A stretch of 64,000 nt of DNA from Owenweeksia sp. (GTDB taxonomy: Bacteria > Bacteroidota > Bacteroidia > Flavobacteriales > Schleiferiaceae). Made by a program: the position numbers and the translations under genes. Of the stretch, positions 2,005 to 53,540 are shown piece after piece; position 1 is the stretch's first letter, and every line of letters begins with the position of its first letter. Below the pieces are notes generated by a model that worked only from the letters and a program-made list of their open reading frames with translations, was not told the DNA's origin and made no database searches. The DNA is taken from positions 1 to 64,000 of the forward strand of contig JANQHO010000052.1 of NCBI GenBank assembly GCA_028277105.1, in the 5' to 3' direction.

Positions 2005-2090
2005 TTGCCCGTAGGGATACGTACATACCATCAAAGAGCGCCTATTAATTGCTTTTAAGAGGAACGAAATGTGTTTTGAACGGGCTGTTA

Positions 2091-2336
2091 TTATTCTCGA
2101 AAAGCCCTTGTCACATTCTTAAAAGCCCTAACAGTTTCAGCAAAGCCATTCAAAAAGTACTTGGAGAGAATGAGGCCACCGAGTACCAAGCCACAGATCA
2201 ATACAGTTTTAGCAATACGTTCTTGTTTTTCTTGAATGGTATAGTGTTCTTTCAAGTGCTTTTCTCTGAGCTTTCCCTTCATCTCTTTGTAGAGTTTTGC
2301 TGGATTCTTACCCCCTTTATGTTTGTTAGGATACAT
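2091..2336 (-). CDS. small single-pass membrane protein, unknown function
   Basis: An 81-residue protein with a strongly basic, lysine-rich first half followed by one hydrophobic segment (about residues 45-65, TVLICGLVLGGLILSKYFL) and a basic tail. I do not recognise the family. The charged-helix-then-TM layout suggests a small inner-membrane protein with a cytoplasmic N-terminus. It lies alone between the IS66 element and the ansA operon. A plus-strand reading frame over the same bases looks less protein-like (Phe/Ser/Leu rich, no domain), which favours this strand. Coding status is likely but not certain. Confidence 0.55.
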   Translation of the reverse strand: MYPNKHKGGKNPAKLYKEMKGKLREKHLKEHYTIQEKQERIAKTVLICGLVLGGLILSKYFLNGFAETVRAFKNVTRAFRE

Positions 2337-2435
2337 GGCTTAGCTCTTTTGACATCATCTACAAAATCGCAGAATCGCCCTAATGTCTTCTGCTAAGAAG
2401 TTCGAAATTGGGAGGCTTGGGCCCGCAAAAACTAG

Positions 2436-2537
2436 ATGATCCCGGCCAGGAATGGCCGGGATTTTTTGTTTTGGTAAGCTGTACGGGTATAAGTGGAAGC
2501 TACTACAAAAGCAAGCGAGTGCAGCGAGCGGGATCAT
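2436..2537. repeat. hairpin-rich intergenic element bounded by 9-bp inverted repeats
   Basis: ATGATCCCG at 2436-2444 is matched by its exact complement CGGGATCAT at 2529-2537. Inside lies a strong terminator-like hairpin (2439-2462) and a GCGAG-N4-GCGAG tandem at about 2513-2528. The whole is 102 bp in a gene-free stretch. This could be a REP-like or MITE-like palindromic element; copy number in the genome is unknown. Confidence 0.4.
2439..2470 (+). terminator. Rho-independent terminator, plus strand
   Basis: A perfect 9-bp stem, ATCCCGGCC and GGCCGGGAT around a 6-base loop, is followed by six T and then GTTTT on the plus strand. No plus-strand gene ends nearby other than tnpC, 435 bp upstream. 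It may end read-through from the IS66 element or a short non-coding transcript from the 2340-2440 region. Confidence 0.7.
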
Positions 2538-2589
2538 AAAGTAACCCCTCTTACAGCTAATAATTAAACCAGCCTGCGTTACTGCTTTT

Positions 2590-3624
2590 TTATTTGCGAG
2601 TAAGCTCCCCTCTTAAAGGAGTTTCAAAGAGAAGCTTAAAGTTTTTATAATCAGCTTCCCTTTCCAGTAAGTACATCATTTTAACCAGGGCTGCTTCAAA
2701 GGTCATGTCATAGGAACTGATAATGCCTGCATCAGCCAGGGCCTTACTGGCTTCGTATTTACCCAGGTTAACGGCTCCCCCGTCACATTGGGAAACGTTG
2801 ACCACTTTAACATTTCTATCCATACAGCCTGTTACGGCATCGATCAGCCATTTATCAGTAGGGGCATTACCGCTGCCAAAGGTGCGCAATAGCAGGCCTT
2901 TCATTTCGGGGTTGTTGAGTACCGATTGCACAAAATGAGGTTGAATGCCGGGAAACATGGTGAGTACCGCTACATCGGTACAGAGTTCAGGGGAACACCG
3001 GAAAGGCTCACCTGGGGGGGTGAGAATGGCCGCTTCATTGAACTTTATGTTTACTCCGGCCTGGGCGAGTAAGGGATAATTGAAGGAATAAAAAGCTTCA
3101 AAATCTTCAGTGCTCGTTTTATGAGTGCGATTTCCACGGTAAAGGTTGTATTCAAAATAAACGCAAACCTCAGGTACCATGGCCAATTGATCTGATCGTT
3201 TGGCAGTAGCTATTTCGATCGTGGTTATCAGGTTTTCGCGGGCATCACTGCGGGGAATGCCGATTGGGAGCTGGGCACCGGTTAAGATGACGGGCTTGGA
3301 GAGGTTTTGCAGCATGAAGCTCAAAGCAGAGGCGGTATAAGCCATGGTATCGGAACCGTGGAGAATAACAAAACCGTGATAATTGTGGTAATCCTGTTCA
3401 ATTCTGCGGGCCAATTTAGTCCAATGCTCAGGTTTAATATTACTGCTGTCTATCGGTGCGTCCAGGCTATCGGTGTCGATAGTGCAATCGATTAACTTCA
3501 ACTCAGGGATTTGTTCCAGCAGGAAATCAAAATCAAAGGGCGCAAGGGTTCCTGTTTTTTCATCCGCCTTCATGCCAATAGTACCGCCAGTGTATAGCAT
3601 CAATATTTTATTGGAGCTTTTCAT
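2590..3624 (-). CDS. ansA: type I L-asparaginase
   Basis: Hydrolyses asparagine to aspartate and ammonia; with no signal peptide it should be the cytoplasmic type I enzyme. The 344 residues match the family length. The first catalytic block is TGGTIGM at residues 12-18, with the nucleophile Thr. The second is HGSDTMAYT at 89-97, with the Thr-Asp pair of the second triad. The start overlaps the stop of the upstream tatD gene by 4 bp (ATGA), so the two are translationally coupled. No clear terminator lies just downstream on the minus strand. Pairing of ansA with a TatD gene is frequent in Bacteroidetes as I recall; no shared function is known. Confidence 0.93.
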   Translation of the reverse strand: MKSSNKILMLYTGGTIGMKADEKTGTLAPFDFDFLLEQIPELKLIDCTIDTDSLDAPIDSSNIKPEHWTKLARRIEQDYHNYHGFVILHGSDTMAYTASALSFMLQNLSKPVILTGAQLPIGIPRSDARENLITTIEIATAKRSDQLAMVPEVCVYFEYNLYRGNRTHKTSTEDFEAFYSFNYPLLAQAGVNIKFNEAAILTPPGEPFRCSPELCTDVAVLTMFPGIQPHFVQSVLNNPEMKGLLLRTFGSGNAPTDKWLIDAVTGCMDRNVKVVNVSQCDGGAVNLGKYEASKALADAGIISSYDMTFEAALVKMMYLLEREADYKNFKLLFETPLRGELTRK

Positions 3625-39647: not shown

Positions 39648-39690
39648 GAGGCAAAATTAAACAAGCTATTTTTTGCAACTTGCCTCGCAG

Positions 39691-40776
39691 ATGCAGAATA
39701 GCGGAAAGATACTTTTTGGTGTTTTGAATTGGGGCCTGGGTCATGCCACACGTTCGGCTATCCTTATCAAAAAACTGGCGGAAAGCAGCTGGGAACCTAT
39801 AATAGCCAGTGATGGCGAGGCGTTATTGTATTTAAAGAACCAATTTCCCCAATACTCTTTTCTCGAATTACCCTCTTATCACATAGCTTACAGCAAGCAT
39901 AGCAATCAGTTGGGAATAGTATTCCGGCAGTTGCCAGCAATCTACGGGGCCGTTTCAAAAGAAAAAGAAATAGTAAGAGTATTTATACGGGAAAACCCCA
40001 GTGTAAAAGGAGTAATATCTGATAATCGTTTAGGCTTTTATCATCCGGGCGTTCCCTCGGTTTACATTACTCACCAGCTTAATCTCCAGGCTGGTTGGCT
40101 TAACGGGTTGGCCTCAAGATCTCACCGTTTTTTCATCCATAGGTTCAGTGAATGCTGGGTGCCTGATTTTGAAGATCCGCTCAAAAGCCTTGCAGGCAAA
40201 CTCAGCAAGGGATCAGATATACAGATACCCTTGAAATACTTAGGCCCGTTGTCCCGCTTTAGCGAAACGGGTGTTATCCCAGTGAAAAAAAAATACCTCT
40301 ACTCAGCTGTATTGAGTGGTCCCGAGCCTCAGCGTAGCATACTGGAAAGAAAAGTTGTTGATTTTTTTTCGGACAGTAAAGAACCCTGTGTGTTGGTAAG
40401 AGGTACAAAAAAGGCTACAGTTTTAAATGCCGGAACTAATGTAAAAGTGATTGATATGGCTGGAACAGAAGAACTATATGATGTTATAACTTCTTCTAAG
40501 CTACTGATCAGCCGTAGTGGCTATTCTTCGATTATGGATTATTACTATTTACAGGCTAAAGCCCTGCTTATTCCTACACCTGGCCAAACAGAACAGGAAT
40601 ATCTTGCCCAAAGACTAAGAGATAAAAAGTTGTTTTACAGTTCGGATCAAAAAAAACTGAATTTTGCGGAAGACCTTAAAAAGGCGATGAGCTATTCGGG
40701 GTTTAGAAGTTTTGAGAGCAAAATAACTTCCTGGGAAGAATTATTTTCCCTTTTTGAGGGTAAAAGAAAATGTTGA
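39691..40776 (+). CDS. glycosyltransferase of the MurG/UDP-glucuronosyltransferase fold
   Basis: About 361 residues. ATG 39691 is preferred over TTG 39673. The N-terminal VLNWGLGHATRSAILI is the glycine-rich nucleotide-sugar fold opening, and the late SRSGYSSIMDYYYLQAKALLIPTPGQTEQEYLAQRL block is the donor-binding Glu/Gln region of GT28-like enzymes. The acceptor is unknown; homologues are generally annotated only as glycosyltransferases. It has no signal peptide. The last 36 bp overlap the 3' end of the convergent histidine kinase gene. Confidence 0.85.
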   Translation: MQNSGKILFGVLNWGLGHATRSAILIKKLAESSWEPIIASDGEALLYLKNQFPQYSFLELPSYHIAYSKHSNQLGIVFRQLPAIYGAVSKEKEIVRVFIRENPSVKGVISDNRLGFYHPGVPSVYITHQLNLQAGWLNGLASRSHRFFIHRFSECWVPDFEDPLKSLAGKLSKGSDIQIPLKYLGPLSRFSETGVIPVKKKYLYSAVLSGPEPQRSILERKVVDFFSDSKEPCVLVRGTKKATVLNAGTNVKVIDMAGTEELYDVITSSKLLISRSGYSSIMDYYYLQAKALLIPTPGQTEQEYLAQRLRDKKLFYSSDQKKLNFAEDLKKAMSYSGFRSFESKITSWEELFSLFEGKRKC

Positions 40777-41787
40777 ACCCGCATCTTCGCTACTCCTTAC
40801 ATTAATGCTTTGCTTATGAGCCTCCAGAATGTGTTTTACTATGGAAAGGCCAAGTCCAGTGCCTCCCGCTTCCCGGGAACGGCTTTTATCAACCCGGTAA
40901 AAGCGTTCAAATATCCGGGGAATATCCTCCTGGGGTATACCTACACCATCGTCTGAAACCTCTGTCAGTATGTTATTATGCATGTCATAAAAGCGAACTT
41001 CAACTTTTCCTTTTTCCTTACCGTACTTAATTGCATTAGTTATCAAATTGATGATCACCTGTTCGATTTTTCCGCGATCGGCATAAACCTTAATGGGCTT
41101 TTCGTATTCTTTTTTGAGTTTCAATTTTATTTTCCGGTTTTTAGCCTTGTCTTCCAGGAGCTCAAATACTTCGTGAAGCAGGATAACAATATCAAAATTA
41201 GACAGATTGAGCTGAACCCTGTTGGACTCGAGCGCGCTAATGGTTTCCAGGTCTTCTATAATGTTGATCATCCGGTCTACCGATTTATTAGCTCTTTTTA
41301 AATACTTCCGGTTGATCTCGGGGTCGTCTAAGGCACCATCCAATAGAGTGAGCAGGTAGCCCTGGATGTTAAATACCGGGGTTTTTAACTCGTGGGAAAT
41401 ATTGCCTATAAATTCTCTGCGGAAAGACTCTCTTTCCTTGAGTTCCTGTATTTCGTTACGCCTTTGCTCGGCCCATTCTGATACCTCGCGGGTAACCATG
41501 TCCAGGTCAGAACTGCGTACAATTTCGTCCTCATCCAAATCATCTCCAACCTTTAGCTCGTGTATATTTTTGTAAATGATCTTTACTTTGTTGTAAATAA
41601 ACTGTTCTACGGAAAAGCGCACCAATAAAAATGAAATAATAGTAGCCCATAAGGTGAGCATTGTAATGGCGGTCCAATCGAGATCGGCCTTGGTGAAAGT
41701 GTTGATAAGAATGACAGAACCCAGTACCAGTAAACCGAGTAAAAGGGATACGCTTAAGGCCAGTATGTTGGGACGTTCAAAACGCAT
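40741..41787 (-). CDS. PhoR-like sensor histidine kinase
   Basis: A 348-residue kinase with two membrane helices (about 9-30 and 39-57), almost no periplasmic loop, a short linker (61-110), then HisKA with the phosphoacceptor His132 in ISHELKTPVFN. The ATPase domain has N box INLITNAIKYG, G1 DDGVGIP and G2 GGTGLGLSIVKHI. The lack of a periplasmic sensor is like PhoR, which senses phosphate through the transport machinery. It lies 17 bp after the response regulator gene. Other PhoR-like kinases share this layout, so the phosphate role rests on the locus. Confidence 0.93.
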   Translation of the reverse strand: MRFERPNILALSVSLLLGLLVLGSVILINTFTKADLDWTAITMLTLWATIISFLLVRFSVEQFIYNKVKIIYKNIHELKVGDDLDEDEIVRSSDLDMVTREVSEWAEQRRNEIQELKERESFRREFIGNISHELKTPVFNIQGYLLTLLDGALDDPEINRKYLKRANKSVDRMINIIEDLETISALESNRVQLNLSNFDIVILLHEVFELLEDKAKNRKIKLKLKKEYEKPIKVYADRGKIEQVIINLITNAIKYGKEKGKVEVRFYDMHNNILTEVSDDGVGIPQEDIPRIFERFYRVDKSRSREAGGTGLGLSIVKHILEAHKQSINVRSSEDAGSTFSFTLKKGK

Positions 41788-41804
41788 TAAGGGAAAGGTA
41801 AGGT

Positions 41805-42488
41805 TTATGCTTCAAACTTATACCCCACTCCTTTAACGGTTTTGATGTATTTATCTCCGATTTTTTCGCGCAGCTTGCGGATATGAACGTCTATGGTTCT
41901 TCCACCAACCACTACTTCATTACCCCATATCTTATCCAGTATCTCATCGCGGTGAAATACTTTTCCCGGGCGGGAAGTCAGGAGTGAGAGCAGCTCAAAT
42001 TCTTTACGAGGCAAATCCAGTTTTTTATCTTTATAGCGTACCTGGTATTTATCCAGATCAATGGTAAGGTTGCCAAACTCCTGGATAGAAGATGATTTTT
42101 GCGATTGCCCGTATCGTCTTAATAAGGCTTTGATCCGGCTTACCAATACTTTAGGTTTTATAGGCTTGGTAATATAATCATCAGCTCCGGCATCAAATCC
42201 TGCTACCTGCGAGTAATCCTCGCCCCGGGCAGTTAGAAAAGCTATAAGGGTTTCGTTGAGTTCAGGGGTATTTCTGATCTGGTCACAAGTTTCAATTCCA
42301 TCCATACCCGGCATCATTACATCCAGTAAAATGAGGTGCGGGTTTTCCTTTTTGGCTATTTTCAAGCCTTCTTCTCCGTTAGAAGCAGTAATTACTTCGT
42401 AATTTTCCTTTCTTAGATTATAACTGACAAACTCAAGTATGTCAGGCTCATCATCAACCAGAAGAATTCTATAGTCGTTGTTTTTCAT
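41805..42488 (-). CDS. PhoB/PhoP-like response regulator
   Basis: A 227-residue OmpR-family regulator. The receiver has Asp11-Asp12 as acidic pocket, phosphoacceptor Asp56 (LILLDVMMPGMDG) and Lys108 (YITKPIKP). The C-terminal winged helix has RKEFELLSLLTSRPGKVFHRDEILDKIWG and the recognition helix VVGGRTIDVHIRKLREKIG, followed by VKGVGYKFEA. This is close to PhoB/PhoP. A promoter with TTG and TAATTTTG lies upstream. Phosphate as signal is inferred from the repeats and genes across the intergenic region. Confidence 0.93.
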   Translation of the reverse strand: MKNNDYRILLVDDEPDILEFVSYNLRKENYEVITASNGEEGLKIAKKENPHLILLDVMMPGMDGIETCDQIRNTPELNETLIAFLTARGEDYSQVAGFDAGADDYITKPIKPKVLVSRIKALLRRYGQSQKSSSIQEFGNLTIDLDKYQVRYKDKKLDLPRKEFELLSLLTSRPGKVFHRDEILDKIWGNEVVVGGRTIDVHIRKLREKIGDKYIKTVKGVGYKFEA

Positions 42489-42505
42489 GCTTCTGTAATT
42501 TTTCC

Positions 42506-42538
42506 CAAAATTATATATATAAGACGTAGCCCTTCCAA
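42506..42538 (-). promoter_or_regulatory. promoter of the response regulator/kinase operon
   Basis: On the minus strand TTG (42538-42536), a 22-bp spacer and TAATTTTG (42513-42506, exact TAnnTTTG) precede the ATG by 17 bp. TTAACA and TTAATA, 11 bp apart in the opposite orientation (42541-42557), abut its -33 element and could allow autoregulation. Confidence 0.55.
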
Positions 42539-42814
42539 CCTTAACAAATCTTTAATACAGTATTATGAATATTATCCCATTGTTAAATAAGGGTTTTAGA
42601 AGTGTTTTGGGGCAGTTGTAATATTAAGTTATAATAACATTGCGAATATAAAGTTGATTGTATATTTATGAATCAGAAAATCAACTTGTTGGCTTTGGAA
42701 ATAGCCCTTTAGACAAATAAATGGCCTGCCAAAATGAAAAATTATAACCAACCATATTGTTTTTTTCTTTTACTCAGGCGGTTATCAGTTATTTACTTCA
42801 ATTGTTTTTCAAAG

Positions 42815-42859
42815 GTAACAGTTCATTAACAGAGGCTTAACACTACTCCTCTAATATTG
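42815..42859 (+). promoter_or_regulatory. Pho-box-like triple repeat and -7 element
   Basis: TAACA occurs at 42816, 42827 and 42838, exactly 11 bp apart; the last two are full TTAACA, the first GTAACA. TAATATTG (42852-42859), one mismatch to TAnnTTTG, begins 9 bp after the last repeat. This is the geometry of PhoB/PhoP-activated promoters, where 11-bp direct repeats replace the -35 element; Bacillus PhoP binds TT(A/C/T)A(A/C/T)A-type repeats. The 38 bp to the ATG give an ordinary leader. Confidence 0.6.
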
Positions 42860-42897
42860 CACTCGATTTTAATCTTAATCCTAAATTTTATTAAATC

Positions 42898-44151
42898 ATG
42901 AGAAAATTATTTTTCGGTTTTGTAGCGGTAAGCGCTATGATATTCACTTCTTGTAGTGATGATGACGATGAACCCAACAATAATAATGACAACAACACTG
43001 CAGTAGTTGTTAAATCAGGTTCTATTACTTCTGACGAAACCTGGACTTCAGACAATATATACCGTCTTGACGGTAGAGTATTGATTACAGGTGGAGCTGA
43101 GCTTACTATTGAGCCAGGAACTATCATTAAAGCATCTCCGGGAACAGGTTCTTTCGCCTCTGCTCTTATTGTTACTCGCGAAGGTACTATCAACGCTCAG
43201 GGTACAGCTGAAGCTCCTATTATCTTCACCTCTATTGCTGATGACATTGAGCCAGGTCAAATTGAGAGTCCTAACCTAGATCCTACTAATAGTGGTCTTT
43301 GGGGTGGTGTTATCATCTTGGGTGATGCTCCAATCTCTGCTCAAAACTCTGGTGGTACAGATGTTACTGAATTACAAATTGAAGGAATTCCTACTTCTGT
43401 AGATGCAAAATACGGTGGTAACAATGCCTCTGATAACTCAGGGACTTTCACTTATGTTTCTATTCGTCACGGAGGTTCTAATATCGGTGCTGGTAACGAA
43501 ATCAACGGTCTTACTTTAGGTGGTGTTGGTTCAGGTACTACTATCAACAATATCGAAATTGTAGCTAATCAAGATGATGGCGTTGAATGGTTTGGTGGAG
43601 ACGTTGACGTTTCTAATGTTTTAGTTTGGAATAGCGGTGATGATGGTCTGGATACTGACCAGGACTGGATTGGTACTTGTTCTAACTTCTTGGTAGTAAC
43701 ACCTAGAAGCGGTTCCGCATTTGAATTAGATGGTCCTGAAGGTTCTTTAAACCGTGGTTTCCACACTTTCACTGACGGTGTTGTTTACGCTGGTGAAGAT
43801 ATTGATCACTTAGTAGACTGGGACGGTAGCACTAATGCTGCTGTTAGTAATGTATACTTTTTCGGAATACCCGCTTCTTACAGACAAATCTTAGATAATC
43901 CTGCTACTCCAGATGATGATGAGTCATTTGATCCAATTGAATCTTTTGGAGGTGATGGTTCAGGAACATCTACTAATTGGGAATATACACTAGCTGCTGG
44001 TGGTGCAACTGTAGCTGAGATATTCATTGGCGTTACAGCTACTATCTTAACTGAAGTAGGTCAAAACCAAAATACTGTTGGTTACAACGCTGACTTTGGT
44101 TGGACATGGGCTAGCCAATCTAATGCTCTTGCTTCAATCGGCCTGATGTAA
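42898..44151 (+). CDS. surface lipoprotein with beta-helix-like repeats
   Basis: A 417-residue protein. Lipobox MIFTSCSDDDD (Cys19) and an Asp/Asn-rich spacer precede a body of short repeating strands (GAELTIEPGTIIKAS, LIVTREGTINAQGTAEAPIIFTS, GGVIILGDAPI, EINGLTLGGVGSGTTINNIEIV) like a right-handed beta-helix. Such proteins are often encoded beside TonB receptors in Bacteroidetes and sometimes mislabelled as multidrug transporters. Codon choice is biased to T-ending Gly, Ser, Thr and Val codons, as in abundant proteins. It has a Pho-box-like promoter and is followed by a strong terminator, so it can be expressed more highly than the receptor downstream. Confidence 0.85.
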   Translation: MRKLFFGFVAVSAMIFTSCSDDDDEPNNNNDNNTAVVVKSGSITSDETWTSDNIYRLDGRVLITGGAELTIEPGTIIKASPGTGSFASALIVTREGTINAQGTAEAPIIFTSIADDIEPGQIESPNLDPTNSGLWGGVIILGDAPISAQNSGGTDVTELQIEGIPTSVDAKYGGNNASDNSGTFTYVSIRHGGSNIGAGNEINGLTLGGVGSGTTINNIEIVANQDDGVEWFGGDVDVSNVLVWNSGDDGLDTDQDWIGTCSNFLVVTPRSGSAFELDGPEGSLNRGFHTFTDGVVYAGEDIDHLVDWDGSTNAAVSNVYFFGIPASYRQILDNPATPDDDESFDPIESFGGDGSGTSTNWEYTLAAGGATVAEIFIGVTATILTEVGQNQNTVGYNADFGWTWASQSNALASIGLM

Positions 44152-44171
44152 GTCTTATTGACACTATTGTA

Positions 44172-44215
44172 AAAAGGCTTGCTTTATAAATTTTTATAAA
44201 GCAAGCCTTTCTTGT
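44172..44215 (+). terminator. strong hairpin between lipoprotein and TonB receptor genes
   Basis: AAAGGCTTGCTTTATA and its complement TATAAAGCAAGCCTTT (stem of at least 16 bp, about 44173-44210) followed by a short T-rich tail. The receptor gene starts 35 bp later with no clear promoter between, so partial read-through probably feeds it. Confidence 0.85.
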
Positions 44216-44244
44216 TTAACATACAAACTAAGAGAACAACAGCA

Positions 44245-47136
44245 ATGGACATAACAATTAAAAAAACCTTCCTAATCCTGATATCATTTTTTTTATTGTG
44301 CAATATGGCCTATAGCCAAAAAGGAACAATTAGAGGGCAAATTATCGATGGAGAAAATGGGGAACCTTTATTTAGCGCTAATGCCATTCTTGTAGGTACT
44401 CAAAATGGAGCCACTTCAGATTTTGACGGGAATTTTGAAATTATTGCTGACCCTGGCACCTATGACCTTGAAATATCATTTATAGGTTTGAGTAGTGTAA
44501 CCATTACAGGCGTTGAGGTTAAAGCCGGTGAAGTAACAATTATTGATGTAATTCAATTGAAGCCAGCTACTAATGAGCTAGCTGCAGTAACGATTACAGC
44601 CGAAGCTGTTAGAAATACGGAAGAAGCCTTGATTACAGCCAAACGAAAATCTGCCAATGTGATAGATGGTATATCAGCCTCTAAACTTCGTAAAACGGGC
44701 GACTCAGATGCTGGTGATGCAGTGAAGCGTGTTACGGGAGTTTCTGTAGAAGGTGGGAAGTACGTTTATGTGAGGGGATTAGGAGACAGGTATACTAAAA
44801 CTATGCTTAATGGAGTAGATATCCCCGGTCTCGATCCAGATAAAAATAGCATACAGATAGATATTTTTCCTACGAACCTGATCAGTAATATGACAGTCCT
44901 CAAATCAGCATTGGCTGAGCTTCCAGCGGATTTTACAGGAGGAGTTGTAAATATTGAAACCCAAGAATTTCCCGTGGAAAAGATTTTTGAGGTTTCTGTA
45001 GGTGTAAGTTTTAACCCTGCAATGCACTTCAACAACAATTATGTCAATTACGATGGAAGCGGAACAGATTTTTTGGGTTTTGATGGTGGTGATAGAACAA
45101 TACCAGATAGGTCAGGCGTAGCCCCACGTGCTAACTTTGAATCTGATGCAGAAGTAAATGAATTTGTAAAGAAGTTTAATAGAACTCTTGGCGCAGATAT
45201 CCAGACTAGCCCGATGGATTTTGACTTGGGAATTTCTACCGGTAACCAGTACAATTTGAGTAATGGTAATAAGTTGGGTTATATTTTCTCAGCTACCTAT
45301 AAAAACTCAACCAGGTTTTACGAAGAAGTAGAATTTGGCGAATATCAGCGTCCCACACCAGCTGGTGAGTATGAATTGTTAACTGCTGCTACTCAAAGGG
45401 GTAGTATGGGAGAAAATAATGTTTTGCTTGGCGGTTTGGGAGGTCTTTCTTATAAGACACCGGATTCAAAGTATAAACTTACCGTAATGCATCTGCAAAA
45501 TGGAGAAAGTAAAGCTGCTCAATTACGCATTGATGTACCACAAGATATCCCGGGAACATCGGATTATCAAGCTTTTTCTAATAACCTAGAGTATGGTCAA
45601 AGGGGCCTCACCAATGCTTTACTAAGTGGTCAGCATTATATAAACGGAGGAAAGTGGCAGATAAACTGGACAGTTTCTCCTACTTTATCTAATATAACAG
45701 ATCCGGATATCAGGAAAACGGCTTTTACTATTACAGCTGGGGATTCAATTTTTGCACCAGGTCAGGGTGGTAATCCTTTAAGAATCTGGCGTTATCTCAA
45801 TGAAATTAACGCGGTTGGTAAAATTGATGTCATTAGAGAACATAGTCTATTTGAAAATGATGCTAAATTTAAATTTGGCGCTAGTCACGTATTCAAGGAC
45901 AGAGATTATGAAATTATCCAGTATGATTTGGTTCCTAATGGGTTAGCCCCTGATTTCAGTGGTGATCCTGACGAAGTACTTATTGATGAGAACATATTTC
46001 CTGAAGGGGAATTATACTATCAGTCTTCAGTCCAGGCAGGCAAACCTAACCCCAATGAATATCAATCTAATGTTCATTATTCATCCTTATATGTATCTGA
46101 AGAATTCACCCCTGTTTTTAGGTTAAAGGCTATCGTTGGCTTAAGGGGCGAACTCTTTTTACAAAGACATACAGGTAGAGATGCAGACGGAGCAAACGAT
46201 CCAAATAACCCTGAAGCCAATATACTGGATAATGAACTTGTGTTAGATGCTTTTGATTTATTCCCTTCTATAAACTTGATTTATCAGTTGAATGAGAATA
46301 TGAATTTAAGAGGTTCATATTACAGATCAATTGCTCGTCCGTCTTTTAAGGAACTTTCTTTTGCCCAGATTTTAGATCCTATATCCAATAGAACATTTAA
46401 TGGAGGCTTGTTTCAATACCCCGATTGGGATGGAAATTTAATTTCAACCCGAATTAACAATTTTGATATTAGATGGGAGCTTTTTATGGAAAGAGGAGAG
46501 TTGCTTTCAGTAAGTGTATTCTACAAGCAATTTAACAGCCCTATAGAACTGGTTAGGATACCAGCTGCCCCTAATAGTAACGACTTTCAACCTAGAAATG
46601 TGGGTGATGGTCAATTATTTGGAGCTGAATTTGAAATAAGAAAGTCACTTGCTTTTATAACCGAAAGCTTGAGCAATTTCATTTTTAGCGGCAATGTTAC
46701 TTACACCTATTCAGAAATTGATATGACTGATGCAGAATTTTTTGCCAGGTTGGGAGCTGAAAAAGAAGGAGAAACCATAGAAAAAACCAGGGCAATGGCT
46801 GGACAGGCACCTTATATCATCAATGGTGGATTTTCTTACGACAATCGTAAATTAAACTTAAGTTCAGGAGTATATTATAATGTTAGAGGACGTACTCTAG
46901 AGGTTGTTGGTGGGCAATCTGTGCCAGATGTTTTCACAGAACCATTCCACAGTTTGAATTATACTTTGAATAAAACATTTGGAAAGGACAATAATATGTC
47001 TTTAAACTTTAAGGTTACCAATATCTTAAATGATGCCAGGGAGAGCTTCTTTGGTGCTTTTGGAGCTGAAGACCAGGTTTTTACAAGGCTTTTGCCTGGA
47101 ACCGCCTTTTCTTTAGGCTTCGGTTACAAGTTCTAA
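44245..47136 (+). CDS. TonB-dependent outer-membrane receptor
   Basis: About 963 residues. ATG 44245 gives signal peptide MDITIKKTFLILISFFLLC-NMAYSQ; the TTG at 44212 lies at the end of the terminator. A CarboxypepD_reg-like domain (about 30-115), a plug with DAVKRVTGVSVEGGKYVYVRG and LAELPADFTGGVVNIET, and a long barrel ending in LGFGYKF with the terminal Phe follow. No SusD partner gene is adjacent; the upstream lipoprotein takes that place. The substrate is unknown. Position between a PhoB-like regulator and a Na+/phosphate symporter suggests phosphate-containing ligands (inference). Confidence 0.93.
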   Translation: MDITIKKTFLILISFFLLCNMAYSQKGTIRGQIIDGENGEPLFSANAILVGTQNGATSDFDGNFEIIADPGTYDLEISFIGLSSVTITGVEVKAGEVTIIDVIQLKPATNELAAVTITAEAVRNTEEALITAKRKSANVIDGISASKLRKTGDSDAGDAVKRVTGVSVEGGKYVYVRGLGDRYTKTMLNGVDIPGLDPDKNSIQIDIFPTNLISNMTVLKSALAELPADFTGGVVNIETQEFPVEKIFEVSVGVSFNPAMHFNNNYVNYDGSGTDFLGFDGGDRTIPDRSGVAPRANFESDAEVNEFVKKFNRTLGADIQTSPMDFDLGISTGNQYNLSNGNKLGYIFSATYKNSTRFYEEVEFGEYQRPTPAGEYELLTAATQRGSMGENNVLLGGLGGLSYKTPDSKYKLTVMHLQNGESKAAQLRIDVPQDIPGTSDYQAFSNNLEYGQRGLTNALLSGQHYINGGKWQINWTVSPTLSNITDPDIRKTAFTITAGDSIFAPGQGGNPLRIWRYLNEINAVGKIDVIREHSLFENDAKFKFGASHVFKDRDYEIIQYDLVPNGLAPDFSGDPDEVLIDENIFPEGELYYQSSVQAGKPNPNEYQSNVHYSSLYVSEEFTPVFRLKAIVGLRGELFLQRHTGRDADGANDPNNPEANILDNELVLDAFDLFPSINLIYQLNENMNLRGSYYRSIARPSFKELSFAQILDPISNRTFNGGLFQYPDWDGNLISTRINNFDIRWELFMERGELLSVSVFYKQFNSPIELVRIPAAPNSNDFQPRNVGDGQLFGAEFEIRKSLAFITESLSNFIFSGNVTYTYSEIDMTDAEFFARLGAEKEGETIEKTRAMAGQAPYIINGGFSYDNRKLNLSSGVYYNVRGRTLEVVGGQSVPDVFTEPFHSLNYTLNKTFGKDNNMSLNFKVTNILNDARESFFGAFGAEDQVFTRLLPGTAFSLGFGYKF

Positions 47137-47159
47137 ACTTTAAATTTTTGGATTAAGAT

Positions 47160-47190
47160 AAAAAGCCCGCTATTAGTGGGCTTTTTTTTA
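47160..47190 (+). terminator. terminator after the TonB receptor gene
   Basis: AAAAGCCC (47161-47168) pairs with GGGCTTTT (47178-47185), extended by GC/GT in the loop, and is followed by a long T run. Confidence 0.9.
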
Positions 47191-47191
47191 T

Positions 47192-47246
47192 TTAATAATT
47201 ACTTAACAATCAAAACAAAAAACCATTGTAAAGAGTAATAATTTTG
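47192..47246 (+). promoter_or_regulatory. possible Pho-box pair and -7 element before the cupredoxin/lamin-tail gene
   Basis: TTAATA (47192-47197) and TTAACA (47203-47208) are 11 bp apart and both fit the PhoP-type consensus. An exact -7 element TAATTTTG lies at 47239-47246, 23 bp before the ATG. The distance from repeat to -7 (30 bp) is larger than at 42838, and the region is AT-rich, so this site is less certain. Confidence 0.35.
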
Positions 47247-47268
47247 CAATTCACAAAATCTCAATCTT

Positions 47269-50178
47269 ATGAATAAAAAGTTACTATGTTCCTTGCTGGG
47301 TGCACTTGTCAGTGTCAGCACCTTTGCAACGGTACACAATGTTTCTGTTAGTTCCAACGTATTCACTCCCAGTAATCTGGTAATTAATGAGGGAGATACA
47401 GTTATTTGGACTAATATGGGTGGTAATCACAATGTCAACGGTTCTACTACTACTTACCCTTCCAATCCCGCTTCTTTTTCCAATGGTGGGGCATCTTCAG
47501 CTATGTGGACCTATCAGTTTGTTTTTCACGTCCCCGGAAATTACAGCTATCAATGCGATCCTCATGTAGGCCTGGGTATGACGGGTACCATCACAGTTAA
47601 TGCCCTTTCAACTACATCAGATCTAATCCTGACAGGAGTAATAGATGGCCCTCTTCCCGGAGGTTTGCCCAAAGCGGTTGAATTATATGCCACTGCCGCT
47701 ATCGCTGACTTAAGTGAGTATGGAGTAGCCCGTGCCAGTGGAGGTAGTGGAAGTTTAGGTCAGGCGGCTTATGTTATGCCTCCTGCATCGGCAACACAAG
47801 GTCAGTTTATATATATTACCGATGATTCAGCTGGTTTTAATAACTTTTTTGGATTTGATGCCGACTATGTGGATACCAATACCAGCTTTGATGCTATAGC
47901 GGGTAACGGGGATGATGCCTATGAACTGTATAGAAATAATATAGTGGTTGATGTAATGGGTGACGTGAACGTAGACGGTACCGGAGAGCCCTGGGAATAC
48001 CTGGATAGCTGGGCGTACAGGCTTAATGGAACCGGACCTGATGGTTCCACCTTTATATTACCAAACTGGACTTTTGGTGGCCCTAATGTTCTGGATAACG
48101 AAACTTCCAATGCTACTGCTGCCACTCCATTTCCTATTGGAACGTATTCTCCTGTAGCTCCTCCTGCCCCTTCAGTGCCTATCTATAGTGTGGCTACAAT
48201 TACTACCAATGATGTTGACAATATACCAGATTCACTTAATGTTAATTGTGGTATAGAAGGTATAGTTTTCTCAATCGATTTTGACGGAAACAATGGATAC
48301 AGTTTTTATCTCGATGATGGTACCGGGGGTATCAATGTATTCAGCTTCAATGATGTATCGGGTTATACTAGCCCTATGGCAGGCGATTCACTTACTGTAT
48401 GGGGTATCGTTGCTCAATTTAACGGCCTGACAGAATTAATCCCGGACTCAATAAGATTAAACAGCACCGGAAATGCTATCCCCAGTCCCAGTGATGTTAC
48501 TACTCTCGATGAAACTACAGAGGGTGAGTACATTGAACTGAGAGACTTTAGCCTGGTAAACCCTGCTCAATGGCCTACTACCGGTAATGATGCTAATCTG
48601 GAGATTACCAATGGCAATGACACTTTAGTGATGCGTATTGACAGGGATACCGATATAGATGGAACTCCTGCTCCTACCGGAAGCCTGATTATCAGGGGAG
48701 CGGGTACTCAATTTGACGGAGGTACCGTGCCTTTGGATAGCGGCTACCAGATCTTGCCTTCTTCTTTGCTGGATATTATTGAAGTACCTAGCTATACCAT
48801 TGCTGATGTCACCGGCTTTGATCCGGTTACAGGGGAAGCAGATTCTCTTGGTGTTATTTGCGAACTCAGAGGTACCGTATTTACTATCGACTTTGATGGC
48901 AATGCGGGTTACCAAATATACATGTATGATCAAACCGGAGGAATCAATGTCTTTAGCTTTAGCGATGTCAGCGGTTATACTAACCCTCAAATTGGTGATT
49001 CACTTCGAATAGTCGGGGAGATTTTGCAATTCAGGGGCCTCACGGAAATAGGGCCATATACGGTTTTGGTAGAAGCTACTGGTGTTCCCTTGAAATCACC
49101 AGAAGTTGTAACCACTCTTGATGAGTCAACCGAAAGTGAGTATATAAGACTCAATGGCTTTACCTTGGTCGATCCCAGTCAGTGGCCTACATCTTCTGGT
49201 GGAAGTGGTGTAAATTTAGATATTACCAATGGGCATGATACCTTAGTAATGCGTATTGACAGCGATACCGATATTTATGGTAATACTACACCCCCTGCCG
49301 GAGCATTTGACATTATCGGGGTAGGAGGACAGTTCGACAGCAATCCACCTTTACTGGATAATCATCAGATTTTCCCCAGGGATTCCAACGACATTATACC
49401 GGTAGACTTGCCTCAGTTGGCTATTACAGAGATAATGCCCAACTCAGGCCATCCGGCATCTATCAATGGCGATTGGTTTGAGGTAACCAATTATGGTACT
49501 ACCAGTATCGACCTTTTAGGATTTAGCTGGGACGATGAAAGCCGTGAAGCCGGTAAGCATACCGTTACCACCAGCGTGGTATTGCCAGCCGGTGTGTCTG
49601 CTATTTTCCTGGAGGAAGAAAACCCTGATGATGCAGACTGGGCACAATCATGGGCACAGGCAGGGAATAACATCATCATCTTAAATGAAAATGATGAATT
49701 TGTTGACTTTTCAGGATTTAGCTCTAACGGTGACGAAGTAAGCTTGTGGGATGATGGCTTCAGATTATTGTCTTGCGTTGCCTATGACGCATCGGATGTT
49801 AATGCAGGTTTCTCTATAGAGGTTGACAACTCAGGGAATATTCTCGGCAGTTCAGTAAATGGTGTTAACGGAGCATATACTTCTGCTGACAGTGATGTGG
49901 GTAGCCCTGGCAACCTTCCTCCTTTTTCCCTTAGAGAATTGACAGATGATCGCATAGAGCTTTATCCCAACCCTACTTCTGATGTAGTGTTTATCAATAC
50001 CGGGTCTAATGCTACCAAAAACATCCAGTTGATAAGCCTGGTAGGAAGAGTAGTATACAGCAATAGCACCACTGATGAAGTGATCGAAATAAACCTTAAT
50101 AGTGTGCCTGCCGGTATTTATATTGTTTCTGTTGATAACGGAGAAGAGAAGATTACTGCACAGTTAATCGTGGAGTAA
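47269..50178 (+). CDS. secreted multidomain protein: cupredoxin, duplicated OB-like repeat, lamin-tail domain, T9SS sorting signal
   Basis: A 969-residue protein. After the signal peptide (to about 20) comes a plastocyanin-like domain with a full type 1 copper ligand set: His54, Cys96, His99, Met104. A lamin-tail-like domain follows (about 115-285). Two repeats of about 200 residues each share DFDGNxGYxxYxxDxTGGINVFSF-DVSGYT and GEYIELRDF/SEYIRLNGF blocks; they look like the OB-fold parts of secreted nucleases. A second lamin-tail domain (TEIMPNSGHPASINGDWFEV) and a sorting domain (IELYPNPTSD to TAQLIVE) end the protein. No nuclease catalytic domain is seen. Function unknown. Confidence 0.85.
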   Translation: MNKKLLCSLLGALVSVSTFATVHNVSVSSNVFTPSNLVINEGDTVIWTNMGGNHNVNGSTTTYPSNPASFSNGGASSAMWTYQFVFHVPGNYSYQCDPHVGLGMTGTITVNALSTTSDLILTGVIDGPLPGGLPKAVELYATAAIADLSEYGVARASGGSGSLGQAAYVMPPASATQGQFIYITDDSAGFNNFFGFDADYVDTNTSFDAIAGNGDDAYELYRNNIVVDVMGDVNVDGTGEPWEYLDSWAYRLNGTGPDGSTFILPNWTFGGPNVLDNETSNATAATPFPIGTYSPVAPPAPSVPIYSVATITTNDVDNIPDSLNVNCGIEGIVFSIDFDGNNGYSFYLDDGTGGINVFSFNDVSGYTSPMAGDSLTVWGIVAQFNGLTELIPDSIRLNSTGNAIPSPSDVTTLDETTEGEYIELRDFSLVNPAQWPTTGNDANLEITNGNDTLVMRIDRDTDIDGTPAPTGSLIIRGAGTQFDGGTVPLDSGYQILPSSLLDIIEVPSYTIADVTGFDPVTGEADSLGVICELRGTVFTIDFDGNAGYQIYMYDQTGGINVFSFSDVSGYTNPQIGDSLRIVGEILQFRGLTEIGPYTVLVEATGVPLKSPEVVTTLDESTESEYIRLNGFTLVDPSQWPTSSGGSGVNLDITNGHDTLVMRIDSDTDIYGNTTPPAGAFDIIGVGGQFDSNPPLLDNHQIFPRDSNDIIPVDLPQLAITEIMPNSGHPASINGDWFEVTNYGTTSIDLLGFSWDDESREAGKHTVTTSVVLPAGVSAIFLEEENPDDADWAQSWAQAGNNIIILNENDEFVDFSGFSSNGDEVSLWDDGFRLLSCVAYDASDVNAGFSIEVDNSGNILGSSVNGVNGAYTSADSDVGSPGNLPPFSLRELTDDRIELYPNPTSDVVFINTGSNATKNIQLISLVGRVVYSNSTTDEVIEINLNSVPAGIYIVSVDNGEEKITAQLIVE

Positions 50179-50206
50179 TACCGTTTTCTTTAATTTATAA
50201 CATTTA

Positions 50207-50248
50207 TAAAAAAAGGGGTGTCTTGGTATAAAAGACATCCCTTTTTCT
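50207..50248 (+). terminator. terminator after the cupredoxin/lamin-tail gene
   Basis: AAAAGGGGTGTCTT pairs with AAGACATCCCTTTT (one G-T pair) around a 6-base loop, followed by T5. Confidence 0.85.
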
Positions 50249-50289
50249 AATTTTACATATTTGTCCTTTCAAGTAGCAGTTGATTAAAA

Positions 50290-52017
50290 ATGAGTTTCGG
50301 TCTCTTTGATTTTTTAAAAGTTATAGGTTCACTGGGCCTTTTCATCTATGGGATGAAGGTGATGAGTGAAGCTATACAGAAAGTGGCCGGGAACAAAATG
50401 CGCCAGGTTCTGGGGGCTATGACCTCTAATCGGTTTTTCGGGATTTTTTCAGGTTTATTGATTACTACCCTGGTTCAATCTTCATCAGCTACAACTGTTT
50501 TGGTAGTGAGCTTTGTAAACGCAGGTCTTATTACTCTGGCTGAATCAATAGGGGTTATTATGGGTGCCAATGTTGGTACTACGGTTACCGCCTGGTTGGT
50601 TTCGCTTTTAGAATTAGGCAGTTTTAGTATCAGCTTACTTTGTTTGCCCATTATTGCCTTTGGATTTCCCATGATGTTTTTTTCGCGGGAAAAGGTGAGG
50701 CTTTGGGGAGAAGTACTGATAGGCTTTGCCCTACTTTTTTTAGGGCTGTCGTTTATGAAGGAAATAGTACCTGATTTTAGCAGTAATCCCGAGGTTCTCA
50801 GCTTTTTGAGCGAGTCTAATTACAGCGACAGATCACTCTTAGGAAAATATATCCTTAGCCTGGGTTTTGTAATAGTAGGTATTGTTATTACAGTTATTGT
50901 TCAGTCTTCCAGTGCAGCTATGGCTCTTACATTGGTAATGTGCAATCAGGGTTGGATTTCTTTCCCCCTGGCAGCAGCATTGGTATTAGGAGAAAACATT
51001 GGTACAACGGTAACGGCAAATCTGGCTGCATTAGTGGGCAATGTTCACGCTAAAAGAGCCGCCCGTTCTCATTTGATCTTTAACGTAATGGGAGTAGGCT
51101 GGGCTTTATTGATCTTACCTGTTTTTCTGAAGCTTATAGCCTATTTATCAGAATTAGTTACCGGAGCCAATCCATTTGATGAGTTTACGGGCATACCTAT
51201 AGCCCTGGCCTTATTCCATACTATTTTTAATATAGTTAATGTATTGTTGTTAGTGAGTTTTATACCCTTGATAGCCCGAATAGCTATATGGATGGTTCCC
51301 TCCAAGAAAACAGAAGATGAGGAATTCAGCCTCGATTACATTGGTAGCGGCTTAATGGAAACCCCTGAGCTCTCTATAGTTGAGGCGAGAAAGGAGCTCA
51401 TAAAATTTGCGGATCTTATGCGCAGAGCTTTTAAGTATATCCCTTTACTGGTAACAGAAATGGATGAAAAAAAACTACAGCAGTATACAGATCAGTTGCG
51501 CAAATACGAAGACATAGGAGACCGCATGGAAATTGAGATATCGGATTACCTGAGTAAAGCTTCCAAAGGAGAGCTTAGCTCTGACGCAAGCAATACCGTA
51601 CGAAGTATGCTTAACATAGCCAATTATCTGGAGCGAATAGGTGATATATACCTGGAAGTAAGCCGAAATCTTACCAACAGAAAAAGAAAGAAAGCCTACT
51701 TTACCCAGGAAATGAGAGATAATATATTGAAATATGCTACTAAAGTGTCTCTTTCTCTGGATATGATGGTAAAGAACATTGAATCTCCCGAAAACAAAAT
51801 AAATCATATTGAGGCCAATGCCCTGGAAGATGAACTGAATGAGTATTACCAACAACTCAGGGAAGATTATATTAAAAAACTTGAAAAGGGAAAATTCCGT
51901 TTGGAGAGCGGTATATATTACAGTGATTTACTTGCCGAAATGGAACGTATAGGCGATCATGCTGCCAGTATAAGTCAAAGTTTGACCCGTTACGATGATC
52001 CTATAGTTCAGGAATAA
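50290..52017 (+). CDS. Na+/phosphate cotransporter with PhoU-like domain
   Basis: A 575-residue member of the NptA/YjbB family. The two inverted transport repeats carry QSSSATT (63-69) and QSSSAAM (205-211), each followed by a GANVGTTVTAW or GENIGTTVTANL segment; about eight to ten TM helices reach to about residue 340. The last about 220 residues form a PhoU-like helical domain, with NIANYLERIGDIYLEV and LLAEMERIGDHAASIS repeats. It imports or exports phosphate coupled to sodium. It stands at the end of the proposed phosphate locus. The final 17 bp overlap the convergent lipoprotein gene. Confidence 0.93.
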   Translation: MSFGLFDFLKVIGSLGLFIYGMKVMSEAIQKVAGNKMRQVLGAMTSNRFFGIFSGLLITTLVQSSSATTVLVVSFVNAGLITLAESIGVIMGANVGTTVTAWLVSLLELGSFSISLLCLPIIAFGFPMMFFSREKVRLWGEVLIGFALLFLGLSFMKEIVPDFSSNPEVLSFLSESNYSDRSLLGKYILSLGFVIVGIVITVIVQSSSAAMALTLVMCNQGWISFPLAAALVLGENIGTTVTANLAALVGNVHAKRAARSHLIFNVMGVGWALLILPVFLKLIAYLSELVTGANPFDEFTGIPIALALFHTIFNIVNVLLLVSFIPLIARIAIWMVPSKKTEDEEFSLDYIGSGLMETPELSIVEARKELIKFADLMRRAFKYIPLLVTEMDEKKLQQYTDQLRKYEDIGDRMEIEISDYLSKASKGELSSDASNTVRSMLNIANYLERIGDIYLEVSRNLTNRKRKKAYFTQEMRDNILKYATKVSLSLDMMVKNIESPENKINHIEANALEDELNEYYQQLREDYIKKLEKGKFRLESGIYYSDLLAEMERIGDHAASISQSLTRYDDPIVQE

Positions 52018-52519
52018 AGATCATAGGGCTGCTGAGCATATTACTCACATTACCATTACGATCAAATAACTGAAAATCAAAGCGCACCGAATCTACATTG
52101 GCATTTTCAGGATAAGCCAGGTAACTAAAGGTAGTAATCAGGTCACCCTCCAGCGTTTTATTTTGACCTTCCGGTGTGAGGTTAGGAATGATATTGTGGA
52201 AGAAGAGGCAGGTGTCATTGGGAGTGATTTCTACTAAAGAACCGCTTACCTGCTCAAAGTATTTTATTCTGAGATCATAGCTGTTGACGTTACACGGATC
52301 CAGATTGTTCGTATTATCCCTGCCAATGTCTCCATCGCCATCAGTAAAATAAACGGTAAGGAGTATTTCTCTTCGGTTGGTACTGGGATCGTCCACTATT
52401 TCATGCGATCTCCATTCCAATTTGGGAGTATCGGAAAAGTTTTCATTCTTCCGGCAGGAAACCACTGACAAGAACAGGCTAAGAGATAATACTATTACTT
52501 TTGAGTTGAAATTGATCAT
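52001..52519 (-). CDS. lipoprotein, unknown function
   Basis: A 172-residue protein with lipobox LSVVSC followed by a charged spacer. The body is beta-rich with an Asp-rich loop (FTDGDGDIGRDNTNNLDP) that could bind calcium, and a YLAYPENANVDSVRFDFQLFDRNGN segment. Small Bacteroidetes lipoproteins with the GDGDIG motif are common; no function is established that I know of. Its 3' end overlaps the symporter gene by 17 bp. Its start lies 13 bp from the start of the divergent LuxE-like gene, so its promoter must lie within that gene. Confidence 0.75.
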   Translation of the reverse strand: MINFNSKVIVLSLSLFLSVVSCRKNENFSDTPKLEWRSHEIVDDPSTNRREILLTVYFTDGDGDIGRDNTNNLDPCNVNSYDLRIKYFEQVSGSLVEITPNDTCLFFHNIIPNLTPEGQNKTLEGDLITTFSYLAYPENANVDSVRFDFQLFDRNGNVSNMLSSPMIFIPEL

Positions 52520-52532
52520 ACAGGATTTACCA

Positions 52533-53540
52533 GTGTTAAAGCCAACGGTGAAAAACCGCCATTATTTCAAAAATAAGATTTTCAAACTTGAAAATGATAA
52601 TGATTTTGCCTTAACCGCTTTGGAGCTTTTTTATTACCAGGCTCTACACAATAAAATTTACAGCCACTACCTGGATCTGTTAGGTATTGAACCTCAAGAT
52701 ATCACACGATTTGAACAGATACCACATTTACCTATTTCTTTTTTCAAAAGCCAGGTAGTGAAATCCGGCAATTTCAAAGAAGATATGATCTTTACCAGTT
52801 CAGGCACTACTTCAACCGGGCAAAGCCATCATTTCGTTAGAGAGGTAGCGTTATATGAACAGTCCTTTACAAAAGCCTTCCGGCTTTTTTACGGCAATAT
52901 TTCAAACTGGTGTATTATAGCGCTATTGCCTTCTTACCTGGAGCGTGAGGGTTCTTCCCTGGTGTATATGGTTGATAAGCTCATCCAACTATCGACCGAT
53001 GAAGACAGTGGCTTTTACCTTTACGAACATCGCCAGTTGCTGGAGGTACTGGAACGGAAAAAGATTGATAAAAGAAGTACTTTGCTGTTTGGTGTGAGTT
53101 TTGCCTTGCTGGATTTAGCTGGAGAAAACCACCTTAAAATGCCTGAGCTTGCCATTGTGGAAACCGGAGGCATGAAAGGCAGGCGCAGGGAAATGACCAG
53201 GAAGGAATTACACCACCATATAAAAGCTTCCTTTGGAGTTGAAAATGTACATTCAGAATACGGCATGACCGAACTACTTTCCCAGGCGTATTCTACTGAA
53301 AAGGGCAGGTTTAAAACCCCACCCTGGATGAAAATAAGCATCAGGGACACCAGGGATCCCTTTTCAAAAGCCGGTCATCAGAAAACGGGTGGTATCAACG
53401 TTATGGATCTGGCCAACATTGATAGTTGTGCCTTTATAGAAACAGAAGACCTGGGTAGGTTAATGCCTGATGGTAGCTTTGAAGTTTTAGGTAGATTTGA
53501 CCAGGCCGAAGTAAGAGGCTGTAATCTTTTAGTTGTATAA
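52533..53540 (+). CDS. LuxE-like acyl-protein synthetase / adenylate-forming enzyme
   Basis: About 335 residues resembling the LuxE family, which activates fatty acids as acyl-AMP and transfers them. It contains LPISFFKS, the phosphate-binding loop FTSSGTTSTGQSHH, VETGGMKGRRREMTR, and SEYGMTELLSQAYS (the YGMTE adenylation motif). A C-terminal LGRLMPDGSFEVLGRFDQAEVRGCN segment matches the hinge of adenylating enzymes. The longer frame reaches back to 52377 inside the opposite gene; GTG 52533, with AGGA 8 bp upstream, is the likeliest start. Substrate unknown. Confidence 0.82.
   Translation: MLKPTVKNRHYFKNKIFKLENDNDFALTALELFYYQALHNKIYSHYLDLLGIEPQDITRFEQIPHLPISFFKSQVVKSGNFKEDMIFTSSGTTSTGQSHHFVREVALYEQSFTKAFRLFYGNISNWCIIALLPSYLEREGSSLVYMVDKLIQLSTDEDSGFYLYEHRQLLEVLERKKIDKRSTLLFGVSFALLDLAGENHLKMPELAIVETGGMKGRRREMTRKELHHHIKASFGVENVHSEYGMTELLSQAYSTEKGRFKTPPWMKISIRDTRDPFSKAGHQKTGGINVMDLANIDSCAFIETEDLGRLMPDGSFEVLGRFDQAEVRGCNLLVV

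Follow-up and report, generated by a model that had tools for sequence, protein, structure and literature searches.

The window analysed here comprises the 64-kb stretch at positions 1-64,000 of contig JANQHO010000052.1 of Owenweeksia sp. (GCA_028277105.1), to which all coordinates refer. Within it, a PhoR/PhoB-like regulator pair lies back to back with genes for a beta-helix lipoprotein, a TonB-dependent receptor, a secreted multidomain protein of 969 amino acids (aa) and a Na+/phosphate symporter family protein with a PhoU tail. An earlier note, made from the DNA letters alone, had regarded these six genes as a candidate phosphate-responsive scavenging system, possibly an undescribed one. 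All six are present, and all open reading frames (ORFs) that it named were confirmed in position. The locus carries the following features, in which T9SS stands for type IX secretion system:

39673..40776, + strand: glycosyltransferase (Glyco_tran_28_C by Pfam), counterpart of Fjoh_0541
40741..41787, - strand: phoR-like histidine kinase, 348 aa (HisKA and HATPase_c by Pfam)
41805..42488, - strand: phoB-like response regulator (Response_reg and Trans_reg_C by Pfam)
42541..42568, + strand: array close to phoB, with three TTAACA-like half-sites at 11-bp intervals
42815..42842, + strand: Pho box predicted for the promoter of the lipoprotein gene, GTAACA-N5-TTAACA-N5-TTAACA
42852..42859, + strand: predicted Bacteroidota -7 element TAATATTG, with the TTTG kept in relatives
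42898..44151, + strand: surface beta-helix lipoprotein (FII/ElpS-like), 417 aa, with invariant Cys19 lipobox and predicted fold
44173..44210, + strand: terminator- or attenuator-like hairpin in the lipoprotein-receptor gap
44245..47136, + strand: TonB-dependent receptor, TIGR01782-like (CarboxypepD_reg, Plug and barrel by Pfam)
47160..47186, + strand: strong intrinsic-terminator-like hairpin 3' of the receptor gene
47269..50178, + strand: T9SS-exported multidomain protein, 969 aa (Pfam)
50210..50246, + strand: terminator-like hairpin 5' of the symporter gene
50290..52017, + strand: Na+/phosphate symporter family protein with PhoU tail (Na_Pi_cotrans and PhoU by Pfam)

Every gene of the locus except that of the lipoprotein has a Pfam match, which bears out the earlier assignments of both regulators, the TonB receptor, the cupredoxin/OB-like/lamin-tail secreted protein (Copper-bind, OB, LTD and Por_Secre_tail) and the PhoU-tailed symporter. 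For the receptor, the ATG at 44245 was the better choice of start. The glycosyltransferase gene, convergent with phoR with an overlap of 36 bp, had been omitted from the earlier note, yet it is part of the conserved locus; its product scored 33.8 bits for PF04101 (cut-off 22) and probably acts in glycolipid synthesis. No PAS domain was found in the phoR-like kinase, whose score for the NCBIfam PhoR model (248.6) lies below the cut-off of 334.2. Similarly, the phoB-like regulator missed the equivalog cut-offs of the PhoB models TIGR02154 (225 vs. 296.2) and NF053854 (217.5 vs. 270), although these were nonetheless its two top-scoring NCBIfam models. Because the scores remain under the curated cut-offs, the names phoB and phoR lean on neighbourhood and best hits. 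The phoB-like regulator is 57-89% identical to the phoB product adjoining the lipoprotein and receptor genes in relatives, with the exception of one 33% hit (L086).

Clustering in related genomes had been set beforehand as a test of the proposal. Across 99 related genomes searched, the best matches to the receptor and the lipoprotein adjoin each other. Among the 40 loci of this sample that were annotated, the order trmB-glycosyltransferase-phoR-phoB on one side and lipoprotein-receptor-969-type protein-symporter on the other was found in six genera, and the same order minus the symporter in about ten. The glycosyltransferase gene adjoins phoR in 24 loci, and a 969-type gene lies directly downstream of the receptor gene in about 20. 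In a phylum-wide sample of 80 named loci across Bacteroidota, the lipoprotein gene adjoins the receptor gene in 78, and phosphorus genes (phoB, phoR, pitA, OprO/P porin, Na+/phosphate symporter, phoU or pst genes) occur at a distance of up to 10 kb in 29. In Lacinutrix, for example, these neighbours encode a PHO4-type Pit transporter as well as an OprO/P porin, and in a Bacteroidales metagenome-assembled genome they comprise PhoU and Pst genes. The clustering of the locus genes far exceeds chance neighbourhood.

Some variants of the neighbourhood were also observed. Second phoB-like genes flank the lipoprotein-receptor pair in L214 (9146-9811), L242 (6465-7142), L233 and L245, in some cases beside a Na+/phosphate symporter gene. 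In one genus (L076:8632-15875, L077, L078), four long ORFs of 466, 709, 742 and 494 aa, tightly packed after the receptor gene, replace the 969-type gene, and in Algoriphagus and relatives (L191, L195, L200, L211, L212, L255) the pair is preceded by a gene for a 323-aa MoxR-type AAA ATPase (by Pfam, run on L191). In the window, a small lipoprotein gene (52001-52519, - strand) overlaps the end of the symporter gene; together with a gene for a LuxE-like acyl-protein synthetase (52377-53540, + strand), it accompanies the locus in about 12 relatives.

The core of the locus, i.e., glycosyltransferase, phoR, phoB, TonB receptor and beta-helix lipoprotein, is of a kind already described in Flavobacterium johnsoniae, where Lidbury et al. 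named the cluster PUSIV (PMC8115612), and to this extent the system is not an undescribed one. In F. johnsoniae, the genes encode a PF04101 glycosyltransferase (Fjoh_0541), OprP (0542), PhoR (0543), PhoB (0544), a TonB receptor (0545) and the lipoprotein FII (0546) (PMC8115612). Low phosphate induces Fjoh_0541, 0544, 0545 and 0546 in both transcriptome and proteome, and of the five core genes phoR alone lacks clear induction (PMC8115612). The phosphate response that the earlier note had asked of the receptor and the secreted protein is thereby on record for the receptor's counterpart, as it is for that of the lipoprotein; we found no comparable record for the 969-aa protein. The Owenweeksia locus shares with PUSIV (Fjoh_0541-0549) the adjacent phoB and phoR genes divergent from the receptor and lipoprotein pair, a PF04101 glycosyltransferase gene beyond phoR, and a lipoprotein of the same kind with a pectin-lyase-type fold. 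In contrast to PUSIV, the lipoprotein gene comes before the receptor gene, no OprP porin is located beside phoR, a counterpart of Fjoh_0549 (PF07705) was not seen in the locus, and the 969-aa T9SS protein and the PhoU-tailed Na+/phosphate protein are added. The published F. johnsoniae gene order is matched by the Flavobacterium-like loci L093 and L094, with glycosyltransferase, 432/447-aa ORF, phoR and phoB on one side and receptor, lipoprotein, short T9SS protein and LuxE-like protein on the other. Their proteins served as proxies for Fjoh_0545/0546 and align with the Owenweeksia lipoprotein at 30-31% and with the receptor at 31-33%.

Lidbury et al. further related FII to the Caulobacter phosphate-starvation lipoprotein ElpS (PMC8115612; PMC2996285), with 31-36% identity between ElpS and FI/FII/FIII (PMC8115612). 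The Owenweeksia protein resembles the Caulobacter crescentus surface lipoprotein by description, not by direct sequence comparison, and ElpS differs in that its release depends on type II secretion (PMC2996285). In those parts of the literature that were at hand, we met no description of a 969-type protein and a PhoU-tailed symporter at a PUSIV-type locus, or of the promoter code set out below.

In relatives, TTAACA repeats are placed 11 bp apart upstream of the lipoprotein gene, and the TTTG of the -7 box follows 13 nucleotides past the last half-site; the consensus of the Bacteroidota -7 box is TAnnTTTG. A weight matrix was built from 22 relatives with the window held out of training and gave its top score in the 64 kb at position 42815 (15.1; runners-up 11.2 and 7.4). 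Hexamers with at most one mismatch were counted as TTAACA-like, and expectations were taken from dinucleotide shuffles of the same 78 phylum-wide upstream regions. In these regions, 66 pairs at 11 bp were observed (3.3 expected) and 38 at 22 bp (2.7 expected). The window contains only two arrays of three repeats that match at 15 or more of the 18 positions, compared to 0.14 expected in shuffles, and both (42541-42568 and 42815-42842) lie between phoB and the lipoprotein gene. The latter is the best such array in the 64 kb; for the phoB-proximal one, several relatives keep a distance to phoB of about 57-60 bp. In addition, a two-repeat site with TTTG is located 52 bp upstream of pitA in the same genome (G000:C91:6254-6287; L177, pitA 1807-3348), and counterpart sites precede pitA in relatives (G028, G015; L135, L120). 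Genome-wide, this two-repeat pattern gave 7 hits vs. 5 for the control, the most notable of them being the lipoprotein site and that of pitA. The three-repeat pattern was given up as a guide to the Pho regulon of the whole genome, as its hits were mostly not recognisable phosphorus genes, and only the lipoprotein and phoB sites were trusted. TTAACA-like half-sites every 11 bp were also noticed before a gene for a 479-aa TPR-like lipoprotein (G000:C148:31639-31677), which could reflect another PhoB target or chance.

We take TTAACA repeated every 11 bp as the predicted Pho box of Bacteroidota. A TTTAACA-based motif is shared with the PhoPR regulator pair of another member of the phylum, Riemerella anatipestifer: in the accessible part of that study, which dealt with virulence, TTTAACA forms the most conserved letters of the PhoP motif obtained by DNA affinity purification sequencing, and 11-bp arrays before a -7 box are not mentioned there (PMC9603813). 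Control of the lipoprotein and receptor genes by phosphate is well supported because of the conserved promoter repeats, the published induction in F. johnsoniae and the phosphorus genes in 29 of the 80 loci.

The four + strand genes follow one another in the order that had been read from the sequence, but this order does not imply one transcript. Hairpins with T-rich tails occupy all three gaps, and similar hairpins occur in relatives, including in the lipoprotein-receptor gap. With a terminator-like hairpin in each gap, the four genes therefore do not form one simple operon. In relatives, 11-bp repeat pairs were counted 36 times before the lipoprotein gene (1.3 expected), 6 times before the receptor gene (0.55 expected) and 6 times before the 969-type gene (0.4 expected; 21 upstream regions), and none was found in 12 regions before the symporter gene or in 24 before the glycosyltransferase gene. 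According to this distribution, the lipoprotein and receptor genes look phosphate-controlled, the 969-type gene in part of the family, and the symporter gene not.

For the lipoprotein, an AlphaFold2 model based on 49 sequences (predicted local distance difference test, pLDDT, 87.4) predicts a beta-helix, as had been suspected. VIA-align matched the model to pectate-lyase-type folds with Z of 19-21, namely alginate epimerases, lyases, polygalacturonases and tailspikes; the function is not settled by these matches. Neither Foldseek with the model (at E 0.001 or better) nor a profile search of solved structures with the lipoprotein family gave a match, and assignment to an enzyme family was rejected, as the matches at Z of about 20 are scattered over lyases, epimerases and tailspikes. 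The 49 sequences have at least nine invariant acidic residues (D226, D227, E230, D248, D249, D252, D254, E276, D278) in common. In small-genome relatives (G025:C1, G034:C20, G026:C3, G012:C7), ORFs of 1372-1538 aa contain two tandem beta-helix domains of the lipoprotein type.

The nearest folds and the invariant acidic residues, together with the polygalacturonase on which Lidbury et al. based their FI and FII models (PMC8115612), would be consistent with a unit for the uptake of polygalacturonide- or alginate-like glycans, in which the lipoprotein would be a polysaccharide lyase or hydrolase and phosphate control would reflect the harvest of phosphorylated or wall-bound phosphorus. However, a Z of about 20 is non-discriminating among beta-helices, the Foldseek search remained without a match, and the lipoprotein has no Pfam enzyme domain. 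In addition, no glycoside hydrolase adjoins the lipoprotein, and Pfam identified no SusD domain in the ORFs neighbouring the receptor, which does not place the locus among those of the SusCD type. We therefore regard a glycan uptake unit as unlikely. A wider proposal, to which we give somewhat less than even odds, sees in the lipoprotein and its receptor one class of outer-membrane importers, spread over the phylum and dedicated to phosphorus-bearing polymers, with the beta-helix lipoprotein in the position of SusD and with expression governed by a Pho box specific to Bacteroidota, in which TTAACA recurs at 11-bp intervals ahead of TAnnTTTG.

The 969-aa protein is composed of a cupredoxin domain (Copper-bind), an LTD/ExeM-like region, two DUF5689/OB repeats, an LTD and the T9SS sorting domain (Por_Secre_tail), with OB and two DUF5689 stretches recognised by Pfam. 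The tandem repeats are 56% identical to each other; a fold prediction for one DUF5689 repeat was discarded (pLDDT 39). All four type-1 copper ligands (H54, C96, H99, M104) are present in the plastocyanin-like domain and are intact in those relatives carrying it. In agreement with the earlier note, Pfam detected no catalytic domain in the protein, nor in seven relatives of 1051-1597 aa with otherwise the same domain kinds. On this ground, a secreted nuclease of the EndA/ExeM type finds no support. The protein may function in gliding or adhesion at the surface without any role in phosphate acquisition, being a chance neighbour between receptor and symporter. The strong terminator-like hairpin between its gene and that of the receptor, the occurrence of Pho-type repeats in only a minority of relatives and the wide variation in repeat number and length point in this direction. 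Yet the gene's position directly downstream of the receptor gene in about 20 loci and the excess of upstream 11-bp pairs argue against it, and we consider such an unrelated protein possible but rather doubtful.

The symporter shares its Na+/phosphate cotransporter domain and C-terminal PhoU domain with NptA of Staphylococcus aureus and YjbB of Escherichia coli and Salmonella. In contrast to these, its gene adjoins phoBR, and the genome has no detectable PstS/PstC. PstC was not found in the Owenweeksia genome, the weak PstS match being a LysR-type regulator, and none of 37 sampled genomes of the family had PstS or PstC above cut-off. The symporter tail contains the sole PhoU domains found in the Owenweeksia genome; most Pst-bearing genomes of the order also have a free-standing PhoU of 220-240 aa.

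Inner-membrane uptake as an induced step, as proposed earlier, is not supported, given the lack of Pho-type repeats before the symporter gene in all 12 relatives and the terminator-like hairpin preceding it. It is further weakened by a Na+-dependent phosphate transporter of Bacteroides fragilis, which shows a PhoB-dependent 101-fold fall under phosphate limitation (PMC3547664), and by YjbB, which is reported to export phosphate and whose expression activates PhoB/PhoR in Salmonella (PMC11389368). These published findings and the missing repeats, along with similarity to E. coli YjbB throughout its length, PhoU tail included (24% identity, E 9e-38), would suit a YjbB-like exporter or overflow valve that is expressed at plentiful phosphate and stands outside scavenging. 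However, 24% identity leaves the subtype unsettled, and the B. fragilis protein is likened by description, not by comparison. Moreover, NptA, which also ends in a PhoU-like domain, is a PhoPR-induced phosphate importer (PMC13170248), and a second importer besides PitA would be useful in a genome without detectable PstS/PstC. We give an exporter somewhat less than even odds. In NptA, the PhoU domain acts as a modulator of PhoPR (PMC13170248), and by analogy the PhoU tail could report phosphate status to PhoR.

We propose that the locus is the Pho-regulon core in this member of the Bacteroidota and a homologue of PUSIV, which low phosphate induces. Falling cytoplasmic phosphate would cause PhoR to phosphorylate PhoB, which would bind the TTAACA repeats at their 11-bp period, in place of a -33 element, and transcription would start about 30 bp upstream of the lipoprotein gene. 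The hairpin 3' of this gene may let only some transcripts continue into the receptor gene, yielding much lipoprotein and less receptor. On the outer face of the outer membrane, the lipoprotein would bind or cleave a phosphorus-containing polymer or ester, and the partner TonB receptor would import the product of this action. The 969-aa protein, exported by the type IX route, may aid capture by acting, with bound copper, as an adhesin or polyanion binder at the cell surface. The PhoU-tailed symporter would carry phosphate over the inner membrane, possibly also signalling phosphate status to PhoR, but as a neighbour outside the control of the lipoprotein promoter rather than as the induced uptake step.

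What the analysis shows is gene content, synteny, the repeat motif with its spacing, the predicted beta-helix fold and the lack of detectable PstS/PstC, whereas induction in Owenweeksia, transport direction, substrate, attenuation and PhoU-tail signalling are inferred. Several observations weigh against it. Recognised phosphorus genes were missing nearby in 51 of the 80 lipoprotein loci, though many of these loci are short. The likeness to Fjoh_0545/0546 is drawn from gene order, domains and the Flavobacterium-like proxies, not from the F. johnsoniae sequences. The three-repeat pattern is noisy genome-wide (16 hits vs. 9 for the reversed control), and the promoters of the Na+/phosphate symporter and glycosyltransferase genes and of most 969-type genes are without repeats. 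In several relatives that carry both the locus and phoBR, the search turned up no PhoU domain at all, so that PhoR signalling there does not require such a tail; a need for it in general is thereby weakened. With these points taken into account, we assign a probability of roughly 0.78 to the proposal. The observation made in the earlier note is confirmed, and its interpretation is partly supported.

Although Bacteroidota rank among the main degraders in marine and soil habitats, their phosphorus acquisition is poorly known, and many of them, Owenweeksia included, have no detectable Pst importer. The locus offers a conserved and testable unit of lipoprotein and receptor, and a case where the sole PhoU domains found are fused to a Na+/phosphate protein. 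The strong motif is the most useful addition, and the promoter code could serve for listing the phosphate regulon in Bacteroidota genomes.

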